Below, one piece after another: positions 55,663 through 60,132 of a stretch of DNA of 64,000 bases. The position numbers were made by a program, and so were the translations under genes. Under the pieces are notes generated by a model that was given only the letters and a program-made list of their open reading frames with translations, made no database searches and was not told where the DNA came from. The first letter of the stretch is position 1; each line of letters opens with the position of its first letter. Source of the stretch: Oscillospiraceae bacterium (lineage in GTDB: Bacteria; Bacillota; Clostridia; Oscillospirales; Acutalibacteraceae); assembly GCA_910574995.1 (NCBI GenBank), contig CAJTCS010000011.1:1-64000 (forward strand), read 5' to 3'.

Positions 55663-55837
55663 TGCTTTTTTGCGTTTTTTAAGGGATATGTGGGATTTCC
55701 CCTGGAAAACCGCTTTGTTTTGAGAGGGCAAGGACCTCTTTTGGTATTAGACGCCTGGGGGGTGGGGTGGGCAACCGTGGTGAAAGATATTCACATGTCC
55801 CTGTACGGCAAGCTGGAAGGATCTATAAAAAGAAACA

Positions 55838-55859
55838 GAAAAACCACGGTTGGCCGTGG
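55838..55859 (-). terminator. terminator of the small-paralog array
   Basis: On the minus strand a CCACGG/CCGTGG stem with loop CCAA is followed by TTTTTCTG. It lies 55 bp after the last array gene. Confidence 0.75.
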
Positions 55860-55913
55860 CTTCTCTGCTTTTTATGAGGATGTATTGTTGGAATACTTGC
55901 ACTCGAAATGGGA

Positions 55914-56129
55914 TTACTGGGCCAGCATAAAGGCGTTCATGGCCCTGTGGGACAAGGGCATGGTCACACCGCTGACGTTTACATAGAACACGTCGGAGGT
56001 ATGCCTGGCCGGGGCAAATTCCTGGAAAGCCCTGGCCTGGCAGCGAGCGGCGCGGGCAGCCTTGCGCTGCTGGCGGGCGGCCTGGTTCTGCATGCTGGCG
56101 GTGAAGATGGTCTCTGCTTTCCTGCTCAT
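55914..56129 (-). CDS. small array protein 5 (Y-V-N-V motif family)
   Basis: A 71-aa protein of unknown function, last of five tandem related genes. The N-terminal half is basic and Ala/Gln/Arg-rich (ARQQRKAARAARCQARAF), probably a helix. Then comes FYVNVSGVTMPLS, the array's C-terminal motif, with a 10-residue extension ending MNAFMLAQ that its paralogs lack. It is nearly identical to the next upstream gene over its first 36 residues, so it is a recent duplicate. A strong AAAGGAG ribosome binding site supports translation. There is no signal peptide or membrane segment. Confidence 0.75.
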   Translation of the reverse strand: MSRKAETIFTASMQNQAARQQRKAARAARCQARAFQEFAPARHTSDVFYVNVSGVTMPLSHRAMNAFMLAQ

Positions 56130-56205
56130 GTTCCATATCTCCTTTACTTTGAAAGTATCCCGATGTATTTATGAAATCCTGAAAAATTCCCTTCCGGCCC
56201 GTTTT

Positions 56206-56391
56206 TTAGCGGGACAAGGGCATGGCCACGCCGTTGACATTTACATAAAACGCATTGGCGCTCAGGTTGCTCTCGGCGTAGGACTGGAAAGCCCTGGCCT
56301 GGCGGCGGGCGGCGCGGGCAGCCTTGCGCTGCTGGCGGGCGGTCTGGTTCTGGATGCTGGCGGTAAAGATGGTTTCTGCTTTTCTGCTCAT
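56206..56391 (-). CDS. small array protein 4 (Y-V-N-V motif family)
   Basis: A 61-aa protein. It begins MSRKAETIFTAS, continues with a basic Ala/Arg-rich helix (RQQRKAARAARRQARAF) and ends FYVNVNGVAMPLSR. It is closely related to array protein 5 and, more distantly, to array protein 1. The ribosome binding site is AAAGGAGC. The predicted product is strongly basic and soluble. I do not recognise the family. Confidence 0.75.
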   Translation of the reverse strand: MSRKAETIFTASIQNQTARQQRKAARAARRQARAFQSYAESNLSANAFYVNVNGVAMPLSR

Positions 56392-56448
56392 GGTTATACG
56401 CTCCTTTTCAAATAAAACAGGTGGTTTTTAGGTTGGGAAGCCTGGCTT

Positions 56449-56622
56449 TTAGGCCATGGCCGTGGGAAGGATGAAGCCATTGATGTTCTGGTAAGAGATG
56501 CCCGTGTCGGCAAACTCCCCGGCAAAACGCTCGAAAGCGGTGGCCTGGCGGCCCAGGTGGTAGTTGCGCTCGTCCTCGCGCTTTTCTTCGGCCCTCTCAA
56601 TACGGTTAAAAAAGTTTTTCAT
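56449..56622 (-). CDS. small array protein 3 (Y-Q-N-I motif subfamily)
   Basis: A 57-aa protein. A charged N-terminal helix (RIERAEEKREDERN) is followed by ATAFERFAGEFADTG and the C-terminal motif SYQNINGFILP. It forms a pair with array protein 2, sharing 11 residues in a row (ATAFERFAGEF) plus the end. The motif lines up with YVNVNG-x-x-MP of the other three members, so all five appear related. The ribosome binding site is AAGGGAGCG. Confidence 0.75.
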   Translation of the reverse strand: MKNFFNRIERAEEKREDERNYHLGRQATAFERFAGEFADTGISYQNINGFILPTAMA

Positions 56623-56666
56623 ATTTTATATCGCTCCCTTCTCGGTTGGAAACGGTTGGCGCTTTC

Positions 56667-56846
56667 TTATGCAGTGACAACGGGCAGGATAAAGCCGTTG
56701 ATGTTCTGGTAAGAGACGGTGGTGTCGGCAAACTCCCCGGCGAAACGCTCGAAAGCGGTGGCGCGGCGGCTGAGAAGCCGGTAGTCGTTCTTTTCCTTGG
56801 CGCTCTTCTTCTCGGTCATCTTCTTGGTTTCAAAAGTGTTTTTCAT
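56667..56846 (-). CDS. small array protein 2 (Y-Q-N-I motif subfamily)
   Basis: A 59-aa protein with a Lys/Glu-rich N-terminal half (KKMTEKKSAKEKN), then ATAFERFAGEFADTT and SYQNINGFILPVVTA. It is the sister of array protein 3. The ribosome binding site is GAGAGGTAAG. Function is unknown; the conserved part is the last 30 residues, while the N-terminal half varies freely. Confidence 0.75.
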   Translation of the reverse strand: MKNTFETKKMTEKKSAKEKNDYRLLSRRATAFERFAGEFADTTVSYQNINGFILPVVTA

Positions 56847-56899
56847 ATTTTCTTACCTCTCAATCCAAACGTACTGTCGTGGTTTCCCTGTCCCGGGCT

Positions 56900-57088
56900 T
56901 TATGCGCGGCTGACAGGCATCGTGATACCGTTTACATTTACATAACAAACATTCTGGTTGGCCATCTCCCTTGCCTGCCGGTCAAACTCGGAGGCGATAC
57001 GGGTTGCCATGCGGGCAGCCTTCCTTTTTTCATGCGCCGCATTGTTCATCTTTCTGGAGGTGTAAACGGTTTCTACCTTTTTGCTCAT
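56900..57088 (-). CDS. small array protein 1 (Y-V-N-V motif family)
   Basis: A 62-aa protein, first gene of the array and nearest the promoter. It starts MSKKVETVYTSRKMNN, has a basic helix (HEKRKAARMATRIASEF) and ends CYVNVNGITMPVSRA. It groups with array proteins 4 and 5. The ribosome binding site is AAAGGGG, 66 bp downstream of the -10 of the promoter at 57155-57183. A frame extending 50 codons upstream runs through the promoter and is rejected. Confidence 0.78.
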   Translation of the reverse strand: MSKKVETVYTSRKMNNAAHEKRKAARMATRIASEFDRQAREMANQNVCYVNVNGITMPVSRA

Positions 57089-57154: not shown

Positions 57155-57251
57155 ATTATAAACCGCGTTTATAAATTTGTCAAGGGTTTTTATAAAGTTT
57201 TTTCCAAAAAATTTAGAGAAGTTTATAAACACCAAAAACACCCTTTATAAA
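57155..57251 (-). promoter_or_regulatory. promoter and operator cluster of the small-paralog array
   Basis: On the minus strand a perfect TTGACA and TATAAT are 17 bp apart (57155-57183). A perfect palindrome, TTATAAAC-CGC-GTTTATAA (57156-57174), covers the -10 and most of the spacer, a LacI-type CG-centred operator. TTTATAAA recurs at 57168, 57189, 57222 and 57244, with intervals 21, 33 and 22 bp, close to whole helical turns. A LacI-type gene follows upstream. Confidence 0.75.
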
Positions 57252-57324: not shown

Positions 57325-57351
57325 AAAGAAAAAACCGCGCACATTGCGCGG
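57325..57351 (-). terminator. terminator of the lacI-type gene
   Basis: On the minus strand a CCGCGC/GCGCGG stem is followed by TTTTTTCTTTT. Nearby, CCCCTTTAGGGG (57306-57317) repeats a palindrome also found twice in the IS200-type element. Confidence 0.8.
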
Positions 57352-57417
57352 CCTTCAGCCAAATCTTTTTCCTAAATATATATGGTATGCTGCCTGGCTG
57401 CCAGGAAAGCGGGCCTT

Positions 57418-58488
57418 TTACCCTTGGTTCAGGTCCCGCACGCTGTCCCGCTCCACCAGTTCGGTAGGCAGCTCCAGCTTCAGGCAGGGGTCCTGGAAGC
57501 CCAGCTTCCGTAGGCGGTGGAGGTTCTGCAACATGATTACGCACTCGCGGCCCATTAAATGGCGGTAGTTCTTGATGCTGGTGATATTGGGCTCGACCAT
57601 GGTGCAGATAGAGCGGTTGTCAAAGCCGATTACGGAAATATCTTCCGGCACCCGGTAGCCGCAGCGTTCCAGCGCCTTGATGGTACGCCAAGCCTGACGG
57701 TCGTTTTCCGCCAGGAAAGCCGTGGGAAGCTGGGGCGCAGCCCGCAGCAGGTTTTCCAGCCGGTCGGGGTCGTATAGGTCATCCCCGGCGCCCGCCTGGA
57801 AATAATACTCCCGCTTGTCCGGCAGCTCATAGGTGCGCAGCGCCTGGTGGAAGCACCGGCGGCGTTCCAGCTGGCTGTCGTGGTCCCAGCCGCTGTATAC
57901 ATATCCTACCTCCCGATGGCCTTTTTCTTTTAAATGGCGTACGGCGCTGTACACACCCTGTTCGTTGTTGATAGACACGCTGCTAATGCGCACCTCCGGC
58001 CGGTACGAGTCTACCAGCACGCAGGGGACGTCCAGGCTGCGGATGTCGTCCAGGATATCTTCATTCACGTTGCTTGTCTGGATGACGGCGCCTATGGCGT
58101 CTCCGCCGCTTTGCACCAGGCGGCGTAGGTTGGCGTTGCCATGGCAGCTCATGTGCAGCACCATCAGGTTATAGCCGTGCTCCCGGGCCTCCATCTCCGC
58201 CCCTTCTAAAACGGCGGGGTAAAAGGCAAAACGGTCGTCCGATTCATCGCTGCTGGTATAAATCAGATAGGCGATGGACTGGCGGCCCCGGCGGGCGGCC
58301 TCGGGGGGGGCTTCTTTTTGTGCGGAAGGCAGGCATCCCTCGCAGCACATGTTCTCGCAGCCCAGCTCTTGTATTTTTTCCAAGAGGGAATGGCGCAGGG
58401 AATCGCTGATGCCAGGCTTGTTGTTCAGCACCAGCGAGATGGTGGCGGGGGAGACCCCCAGCTTTTTGGCTAACTCTTTGGCTTTCAT
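57418..58488 (-). CDS. LacI-family transcriptional regulator
   Basis: A 356-aa repressor or activator. The N-terminal helix-turn-helix MKAKELAKKLGVSPATISLVLNNKPGIS is standard. The linker is unusual: it carries a Cys-rich stretch (CENMCCEGC) before the periplasmic-binding-protein-like core (about 75-356), which ends with the IGFDNRSICTMVEPNITSI region. The ligand is unknown; no sugar genes adjoin. TTTATAAA sites occur both in its own promoter and in that of the small-paralog array. The ATG at 58488 (GGGGTG at 7 nt) is favoured over a GTG three codons upstream. Confidence 0.88.
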   Translation of the reverse strand: MKAKELAKKLGVSPATISLVLNNKPGISDSLRHSLLEKIQELGCENMCCEGCLPSAQKEAPPEAARRGRQSIAYLIYTSSDESDDRFAFYPAVLEGAEMEAREHGYNLMVLHMSCHGNANLRRLVQSGGDAIGAVIQTSNVNEDILDDIRSLDVPCVLVDSYRPEVRISSVSINNEQGVYSAVRHLKEKGHREVGYVYSGWDHDSQLERRRCFHQALRTYELPDKREYYFQAGAGDDLYDPDRLENLLRAAPQLPTAFLAENDRQAWRTIKALERCGYRVPEDISVIGFDNRSICTMVEPNITSIKNYRHLMGRECVIMLQNLHRLRKLGFQDPCLKLELPTELVERDSVRDLNQG

Positions 58489-58508: not shown

Positions 58509-58553
58509 TTTATAAACTTTATAAAGTATACGCCTTTTTACCGGGAAATGCAA
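58509..58553 (-). promoter_or_regulatory. promoter and operator-like repeats of the lacI-type gene
   Basis: On the minus strand TTGCAT and TATACT are 17 bp apart (58525-58553). Two TTTATAAA copies (58509-58516 and 58518-58525) follow the -10 at once. The second is within CTTTATAAAG, a perfect palindrome. This predicts autoregulation. Confidence 0.7.
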
Positions 58554-58642: not shown

Positions 58643-59344
58643 TCACCCGAATTGCTGCCGCATATAGGCCAACAGCTTTTTCTCCCTGCGGCTGACCTGT
58701 ACCTGGGTCATGCCCAGCAGGGCGGCGGTTTCGGCCTGGGTCTTGCGCTGGTAATAGCGGTACGAGATTAGCAGCCTGTCCCGTTCCTCCAGGCCCTCCA
58801 GGATGGCCCGCAAGGTAAGCTGCTCGGTCATCTTCTCCTCTGGGGCCTCTACCGGGATCTCCAGCTGCCCGCCTTCCTCGCCGCCGGTAAGGGACAGGGG
58901 GGAGCGGCAGGCCCCCAGGGCCAGGGCCGCTTTTTCCGGGGAAACCCCCAGCCGCTGCGCCACCTCGCTTACGCCGGGGCTTTGGCCTGTCTGCTCCCGC
59001 AACTCTTCTGCGGCGGCCTGGGCTTTTTTACCCAGGTCCCGCAGGCCCCGGGAGACGCGTAAAGCCCCGCCGTCCCGGAAAAGCCGGCGCACCTCCCCCA
59101 GGATTACCGGCACGGCATAGGTGGAAAACCGCACGCCCCGGCTGTAGTCGAAATTTTCCGCCGCCTTCAGCAGCCCCAGGCACCCAGCCTGGAACAGGTC
59201 TTCATATTCAACGCCTTTCCCCTGGAAGCGCCGGGCGCACAGGTGGGCCAGCCCCAGGTTTTCCTCCACCACCAGCCCAACATCCCGGGGCCCCTCTGGG
59301 GGAGGGGCCGGCGGCAGGGCCCTGGCCTCACTCTTTGGGCGCAA
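58643..59344 (-). CDS. sigF: sporulation sigma factor SigF
   Basis: About 233 aa. Sigma region 2 is present (ENLGLAHLCARRF, EYEDLFQAGCLGLLKAAENFDYSRGVRFSTYAVPVILGEVRR), then region 3 and region 4 (LEERDRLLISYRYYQRKTQAETAALLGMTQVQVSRREKKLL). It directs early forespore transcription. It is third in the spoIIA operon, which fixes the identity. The start is doubtful: the frame opens with a TTG at 59344 without a good ribosome binding site, overlapping spoIIAB, and the N-terminus is shorter than in Bacillus SigF. Confidence 0.9.
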   Translation of the reverse strand: MRPKSEARALPPAPPPEGPRDVGLVVEENLGLAHLCARRFQGKGVEYEDLFQAGCLGLLKAAENFDYSRGVRFSTYAVPVILGEVRRLFRDGGALRVSRGLRDLGKKAQAAAEELREQTGQSPGVSEVAQRLGVSPEKAALALGACRSPLSLTGGEEGGQLEIPVEAPEEKMTEQLTLRAILEGLEERDRLLISYRYYQRKTQAETAALLGMTQVQVSRREKKLLAYMRQQFG

Positions 59345-59759
59345 AGTATTTGGTCAGGGTCACGCTGGTGCCCTTGCCCACGGCAGAGGTCACCCGCACG
59401 CTGTCGCAAAAGCTTTGCATCACGGCAAAGCCCAGGCCGGCCCGTTCCTCGCCGCCGGTGGTGAACAAGGGCTCCATGGCCTGGCCAATGTCCGGGATGC
59501 CGCAGCCCTTGTCCCGCACCCGTACCACGGCCTTGCCCCCTTCGAAAATCTTGGCCGTTATGTATACGGTGCCCATGCGGTCTTTATAGCCGTGGACGAT
59601 AGCGTTGGTCACAGCCTCGGATACGGCGGTTTTCATGTCGGTCAGGTCGGCCACGGTGGGGTCCAGCTGGGAGAGGAAGGCCGCCGTGGCGGCCCGGCCA
59701 AAGCTTTCGTTTACCGAATTGGAGGAGAAGCTGATTTGCGCCTGGTTCACCGCCTTCAT
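59328..59759 (-). CDS. spoIIAB: anti-sigma F factor SpoIIAB
   Basis: A 143-aa GHKL-family kinase and anti-sigma factor that holds SigF inactive and phosphorylates SpoIIAA. The ATP-site motifs are EAVTNAIVHGY (N-box), VRDKGCGIPDI and GLGFAVMQSF. The ATG at 59759 overlaps the spoIIAA stop (TGATG), 8 nt after AAAGGAGG. A GTG one codon earlier is possible. Confidence 0.95.
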   Translation of the reverse strand: MKAVNQAQISFSSNSVNESFGRAATAAFLSQLDPTVADLTDMKTAVSEAVTNAIVHGYKDRMGTVYITAKIFEGGKAVVRVRDKGCGIPDIGQAMEPLFTTGGEERAGLGFAVMQSFCDSVRVTSAVGKGTSVTLTKYFAPKE

Positions 59760-60076
59760 CACCCCGCCCTCCTTTCAATGGCCGCCACGCTGGCAATGCC
59801 TGCCAGGTCCACCATCTTGGCCAGGTTCTGGCTTAACCCGCACAGCGTTACGTGCCCCCGCCAGAATCCGCACAGCCGTACGCGCCCCAGCACCAGCCCG
59901 ATGCCCGAGCTGTCCATGAAAGGCACGCCGGAGAAGTCCAGCCGCAGGCAGTAGGGCCGCAGCTTTTGGGCGGTGTCGTCAATGGCCTCCCGCATCTCCC
60001 GGGCGCTGTGGTGGTCGATCTCCCCGAACAGACGGGCAGTCAGCACGCCCTCTTTATAGCTTAATTGTACCCGCAT
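59759..60076 (-). CDS. spoIIAA: anti-sigma F factor antagonist SpoIIAA
   Basis: A 105-aa STAS-domain protein that, when dephosphorylated, frees SigF from SpoIIAB. The phosphorylated serine lies in FMDSSGIGLVLGR. The ATG at 60076 has AAAGG at 8-9 nt; ATG 60085 is three codons upstream but directly abuts the ribosome binding site. It heads the spoIIA operon. I see no clear sigma-H-type promoter in the short gap before it. Confidence 0.95.
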   Translation of the reverse strand: MRVQLSYKEGVLTARLFGEIDHHSAREMREAIDDTAQKLRPYCLRLDFSGVPFMDSSGIGLVLGRVRLCGFWRGHVTLCGLSQNLAKMVDLAGIASVAAIERRAG

Positions 60077-60132
60077 TTTCTTCATCCTTTCTTTTCAAGG
60101 CCAGGCCCAGGCCGCGGCGGGCCCCGCAGAAA

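Follow-up and report, generated by a model that had tools for sequence, protein, structure and literature searches.

SgrT of E. coli is a small intracellular protein under metabolic control that binds and inhibits a transporter. With regard to transcriptional control, the available part of a survey of the LacI family (PMC4052901) describes nearly 90% of the regulators as local regulators of sugar use and 72% as autoregulated, and the operators as mostly even palindromes with a central CG and usually constant spacing. Here, we describe a locus of an Oscillospiraceae bacterium in which a LacI-family gene adjoins a tandem array of five small genes. The array, its promoter and repeated sites, their recurrence in other species and the co-occurrence with the regulator are all apparent at the sequence level. 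With a probability of roughly 0.55, we read the locus as encoding a LacI-family repressor that would, apart from its own gene, mainly control small proteins binding a common intracellular partner. No paper was found that joins Neglectibacter with small proteins, or that combines the LacI family, an operator and tandem paralogous small proteins.

The array lies at positions 55914-57088 of the window (the whole stretch of 64,000 nucleotides analyzed), where the first-pass annotation had reported five tandem small genes on the minus strand; they are present there as ORFs and form one tandem unit. Gene 1 (type A, 62 aa, 56900-57088) encodes a protein ending in CYVNVNGITMPVSRA and gene 2 (type B, 59 aa, 56667-56846) one ending in SYQNINGFILPVVTA, followed by gene 3 (type B, 57 aa, 56449-56622), gene 4 (type C, 61 aa, 56206-56391) and gene 5 (type C, 71 aa, 55914-56129), whose product has a C-terminus about 10 residues longer. 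All of them are on the minus strand, with spacers of 53, 44, 57 and 76 nt between successive genes from 1 to 5. A good ribosome binding site had been claimed for each gene, and purine-rich sites were indeed found for all five. The end motifs of the proteins also match the earlier description, but the statement that three of the five are shorter than 60 aa has to be corrected to two (59 and 57 aa; the others have 62, 61 and 71 aa).

These genes appear to be coding sequences under purifying selection. The dN/dS ratio was below 1 in 46/46 pairs (0.08-0.43 for type A, 0.12-0.84 for type B and 0.08-0.56 for type C), with the qualification that the pairs are related and non-independent, the genes short, dS near saturation in some pairs, and the ratios given without a significance figure. 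Synonymous-biased change between copies is what the earlier reading would predict and, along with the conserved gene order, it rules out chance ORFs. The five window members align over their length, and the common ancestry proposed for the two motif groups is upheld by a profile-profile match (probability 96%, 47 columns). Their description as an unrecognized family likewise holds, as no convincing match was found in Pfam, NCBIfam, PADLOC or PHROGs. When 46 members were compared with Pfam, NCBIfam and PADLOC, no family matched more than one member (best E values 0.006, 0.021 and 0.005, in that order), and the best E value of the five window proteins against PHROGs was 0.062. The 46-row set A3 does not contain the fourth, divergent G024 gene, a pair of near-copies from G018, a G022 fragment at a contig edge or the G010:C32 and G001:C58 orphans. 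Searches for solved relatives in the PDB gave none up to 10 in one case and a best value of 0.3 in another. AlphaFold, run with 15 rows, predicted a helix at residues 3-45 and strands at 47-52 and 55-60 for type A (gene 1; pLDDT 78, pTM 0.37), and a helix at 2-40 and strands at 44-49 and 52-57 for type B (gene 2; pLDDT 74, pTM 0.35), in both cases with middling confidence. Both modeled types would consist of one long N-terminal helix and a C-terminal beta-hairpin; a Foldseek search with the type B model, itself of middling confidence, returned nothing at E values up to 0.001.

Related arrays recur within the genus. In four other species (G001, G002, G006 and G011), an array with A, one or two B, and C genes lies beside a LacI gene, and the counterpart of gene 1 is its first gene. 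When 60 genomes were searched with a five-row profile of the window proteins (A1), relatives came up in 10, the window's own among them, all belonging to the same genus, and a scan of contigs of named genomes gave three loci, in Bacterium D16-76, an uncultured Clostridia bin and Neglectibacter sp. X58, which are the G001, G002 and G011 loci. In addition, G024 has a more distant five-gene array beside LacI, most proteins of which end in VRLPY, and G014 has a two-gene array beside LacI, with near-alike genes and proteins ending in NGFFVA. G026 also has a two-gene array of near-alike genes, and in G022 the array is split by contig ends; in both of these genomes, adjacency to LacI was deduced across contig ends. 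A 29-row profile (A2) matched 12 of the 29 genomes of the genus and missed the G014 array, which was located via its LacI neighbor and promoter. Both A2 and a further profile, A4, include members from the genus genomes searched, and those matches are by construction. In a sample of 394 genomes of the order, A2 matched three, all within the genus, and in a sample of 300 genomes of the family, A4 matched five, three of them in the genus and two outside it with weak values (0.002 and 0.004), which fall within open frames 349 and 259 residues long and were judged to be chance matches. On present sequence evidence, the family appears confined to its own genus among the genomes searched, with no convincing relative outside it. 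Orphan relatives were observed in the genome from which the window comes (G000:C1, about 2047-2217; L031:1453-1644), in G001 (G001:C58:86690-86860; L168) and in G010 (G010:C32:279453-279614; L143), the last located, as judged by eye, between MFS-like and MATE-like transporter genes.

The proposal of variable N-terminal and conserved C-terminal parts was borne out for members 2 and 3 (21/26 of the last 26 residues identical, 8/31 of the rest) but is reversed in members 4 and 5 (13/26 in the 26 residues before the 10-residue extra tail, 32/35 in the rest). Within arrays, the pairs compared in G024, G026, G014, G021 and G027, and likewise the type B pairs of G011 and the window, are alike at 21-26 of the last 26 residues and at 2-15 of the remaining 24-33, and their C-part codons differ silently between paralogs while the N-parts have diverged. 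The in-register pair of G010 has 17/26 in its C-part; the two other G010 pairs, which are out of register, were not used, and the comparison did not include the fourth G024 gene. Alike C-parts with silent codon differences argue for selection on a common C-terminal function. Copy expansion had been ascribed to dosage need or to diversification against a partner. The alike C-ends, silent codon changes and differing N-parts fit a common partner, whereas members 4 and 5 show the opposite and the A and C proteins of the window have only 11-12 of their last 26 residues in common. Since G001, G002, G006 and G011 keep distinct A, B and C genes in a fixed order, the copies look specialized and not merely additional dose. 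The proteins would most likely act post-translationally, as small modulators or subunits on a common host protein contacted via the C-terminal part, with different jobs for types A, B and C. That they work by binding one common partner is a tentative proposal; the genus-limited spread and the group-specific protein ends suggest that such a partner would be fast-evolving.

Alternatively, the five proteins might be subunits of one hetero-oligomer, a storage or structural assembly required in large amounts, in which the strongly basic A and C types would pair with the less charged B type via helices and hairpins. The A, B, C order that is fixed in the four other species, the net charges of genes 1-5 (K+R minus D+E: +7, +4, -1, +8 and +7), the long helix plus hairpin of both modeled types and the consensus-perfect promoter described below would all suit such an assembly. 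However, the copy number of a given type is not constant, in G014 and G026 just two genes were seen, near-alike to each other, and array-less single-gene relatives exist (L031, L013 and L143), which makes the assembly an unlikely explanation.

The regulator gene lies next to the array (57418-58488, minus strand) and encodes 356 aa, its start (MKAK...) being set by the alignment of 18 orthologs. It contains an N-terminal LacI-type HTH (PF00356, 30.7 bits; cut-off 27) and a periplasmic-binding-protein-like effector domain (PF13377, E value 4.6e-33, 115.1 bits; cut-off 26.5). In the LacI family, the HTH is followed by a hinge helix with the motif YxPNxxAxxL; no such motif stood out in the linker when the 18-ortholog alignment was inspected by eye. 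Where this motif is not evident, 10 of the 18 orthologs have a CxxC in the linker, possibly a metal or redox site.

Several neighbors of the regulator were also noticed. Sigma factor and anti-sigma genes resembling spoIIA (sigF) occupy 58643-60085, directly upstream of the window LacI gene. A link to sporulation is not general, as none of sigF, spoIIAB and spoIIAA was matched in any of the other 17 LacI loci; upstream sequence is shorter than 70 bases at two of these and amounts to 796 bases at one. A thiamine transporter gene is divergent to LacI in 9/18 loci, namely L061 (10312-10920; Pfam Thia_YuaJ, assigned in L061 only) and the loci of G008, G010, G018, G021, G023, G004, G024 and G026. 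No TPP riboswitch reached the Rfam threshold in the five such loci scanned (L053, L056, L060, L061 and L064).

The array promoter (TTGACA-17-TATAAT, 57155-57183, minus strand) matches all 12 consensus bases and is the only 12/12 promoter among six promoter-like sites in the stretch (1.8 +/- 1.3 in shuffles). Terminator-like hairpins are found on the minus strand after the LacI gene, ahead of the array promoter (57330-57356), and at the array end (55833-55870), where near relatives have a similar hairpin after their last gene; the nine terminator-like sites in the stretch are not above chance (5.9 +/- 2.9 in shuffles). With the 12/12 promoter ahead of gene 1 and a hairpin on either side, the array can be regarded as its own transcription unit.

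Five TTTATAA sites overlie this promoter region (57156-57251, minus strand; first bases 57251, 57229, 57196, 57175 and 57162, spacing 22, 33, 21 and 13), and paired TTTATAA sites are present in the LacI gene's own promoter (58510-58525, minus strand). The first-pass annotation had mentioned neither these common sites nor the arrays lying in trans, and the co-occurrence with LacI across the genus had escaped it as well. A search of the whole 3.45 Mb genome for two TTTATAA copies separated by 1-14 bp hit four locations, namely the promoters of the array and of LacI plus two further single places; the reversed-pattern control gave two. The promoter element TTGACANNTTTATAAANNNGGTTTATAAT, at 0-1 mismatch, was detected in 15 of the 29 genus genomes, all 15 with LacI, and its reversed control in none of the 29 at up to three mismatches. 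Sites with 2-3 mismatches (in G016 and G028, and second sites of G023 and G026) head no array of the family; they were excluded from the counts, as was a second G024 site between LacI and the array. All 15 readable array promoters have 3-5 sites, spaced 29-33 (absent in G022), 20-22 and 13; the search pattern itself contains two of the sites and the 13 spacing but neither of the two upstream ones, and in seven arrays adjoining LacI the sites were noticed before the pattern existed. LacI promoters contain 2-3 TTTATAA sites, 8-12 bp apart, in 17/17 orthologs with upstream sequence; for the 18th (G014) the upstream region lies beyond the contig end, as does the array promoter of G025. Pairs are also present at the LacI promoter of G004 and of G008, two LacI genomes where no array was found, with one further place in G008. 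Four of the 11 LacI-less genomes were scanned for pairs and gave 1-3 matches versus 0-7 in the control. Around the orphans L031 and L143, no TTTATAA was found within the 3 kb examined, and there is no close pair at L168.

The LacI gene gave a single match at E values up to 1e-40 in 18 of the 29 genus genomes. Synteny with LacI genes, which the earlier reading had suggested examining, is evident: nine of the 16 arrays adjoin LacI (two of them as deduced across contig ends) and seven lie elsewhere, and arrays occur in 16/18 LacI genomes versus 0/11 without LacI (Fisher 2.3e-6). With the two protein profiles alone, the figures are 15/18 versus 0/11 (Fisher 1.1e-5); both Fisher values ignore kinship and are overstated because the genomes are related. 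As the profiles gave no match to the G014 array, similarly divergent arrays could be missed in LacI-less genomes.

In G010, G018, G019, G021, G023 and G027, two or three small genes form an array that is not beside LacI, and G025 has in-trans small genes at a contig end. The TTTATAA sites of the LacI-adjoining arrays are also present in six of these seven, those whose promoter is readable; five of the six were located via the promoter pattern, and G021 and G025 (the latter without promoter) were first met by protein profile. A4, built from the in-trans arrays, recovers them along with the single G010:C32 gene, which has no sites. The seven genomes form one side of a branch of the LacI tree with support 100/100, so a single relocation, in either direction, suffices. 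Their proteins have RRQxxxxERFxxExAD in common with window type B and a different end, VFQVTxxKxQAMFW, and the profile comparison with the window proteins covers 18 columns at a probability of 53%; the sequence link thus appears modest. Kinship is supported by the same promoter, the array form and the G000:C1 orphan, which is matched by both the window-only profile (3.2e-4) and the in-trans profile (0.003) and is included in neither.

These observations point to LacI as the protein that binds the TTTATAA sites, an assignment we hold with good confidence, and control would quite likely be repression rather than activation. It is also conceivable, if rather improbable, that some other regulator binds the sites and LacI is merely a co-regulated neighbor. 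The spacing at LacI promoters varies from 8 to 12 bp, against the usual constant spacing of the family, and the AT-only sites are unlike the CG-centered operators described as usual in the available part of the survey (PMC4052901), as another regulator would allow; yet the promoter element (0-1 mismatch) is restricted to LacI genomes, is present also for in-trans arrays, and the sites lie on LacI's own promoter in 17/17 cases. Under the preferred reading, the LacI-family repressor would occupy the repeated sites at its own promoter and the array promoter until freed by an effector, probably a small molecule, whereupon the consensus-perfect array promoter would drive a high-dose burst of five small intracellular proteins. 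No enzyme or transporter was seen under the TTTATAA sites here, which is unusual for a local LacI regulator, and the regulator seems, from its predicted sites, to control little besides the array proteins. The small proteins would therefore have to carry the response themselves, and binding to an existing protein would be the simplest way.

The 3' UTR of the array offers a further reading. A C-rich stretch at 55865-55890 (minus strand) contains ATACATCCTCAT, which is common to six genomes including the window, and the seven in-trans genomes have CGTCACTCCC before the terminator; C-rich stretches after the last array gene were also observed in L126, L128 and others, and might possibly serve as a small-RNA seed. 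If the main product were an RNA, with this conserved 3' UTR acting as an sRNA that pairs with the ribosome sites and the proteins being secondary, its recurrence within groups would be accounted for; the proteins, however, look to be under purifying selection, and the element depends on the group (not evident in G024 and G026) and lacks an Rfam match, which makes an RNA product very improbable. Rfam gave one tRNA in the window and otherwise no match there, and nothing in the loci of eight relatives.

Hardly any better is the prospect of a phage-derived or anti-phage element, with proteins from, or acting against, prophages: two relatives do lie in prophages beside endolysin genes (L166 and L167), but PADLOC families match at most 1/46 members (best E value 0.005), the ORF list and family scans showed no recognizable phage genes beside the window array, and a search of 50,697 phage records with a single member came back empty. 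The prophage relatives (L166:8775-8951 in G001 and L167:8571-8723 in G019) are directly upstream of an endolysin/amidase gene, with integrase, holin, amidase and tail families in L166 and baseplate in L167.

In its fullest form, our proposal is a ligand-sensing LacI-family repressor devoted to typed micro-proteins, the C-terminal hairpins of which would co-evolve group-wise with their partner, in a genus-specific, metabolite-triggered switch; we put this forward as a possibility short of an even chance. If true, the candidate regulator, DNA sites and outputs of an orphan small-protein family would all be sequence-defined, making the function of a lineage-specific micro-protein family directly testable. 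Moreover, LacI-family regulons without metabolic genes may then go unnoticed, because their targets are too short for annotation.

Compared by description only, the array proteins resemble gut-bacterial small-protein families in being short and often skipped by annotation, and differ in combining an array arrangement with typed paralogs and a candidate regulator dedicated to them. Like SgrT-type modulators, they would be small intracellular proteins under metabolic control with post-translational action, as proposed here; SgrT is a single gene as opposed to a five-gene array, and the likeness is claimed in mode and not in sequence. The regulator may differ from LacI-family regulators in its linker, where the usual hinge motif is not evident by eye. 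Set against the local regulators of the available part of the LacI survey (PMC4052901), it is alike in its HTH and sugar-binding-type domain, the sites on its own promoter and its few predicted targets, and unlike them in the AT-only repeated putative sites with flexible spacing and in that no enzyme or transporter was seen under the sites. Judged by that part of the survey, the window regulator would fit the autoregulation typical of the LacI family and depart from it in both target and site.
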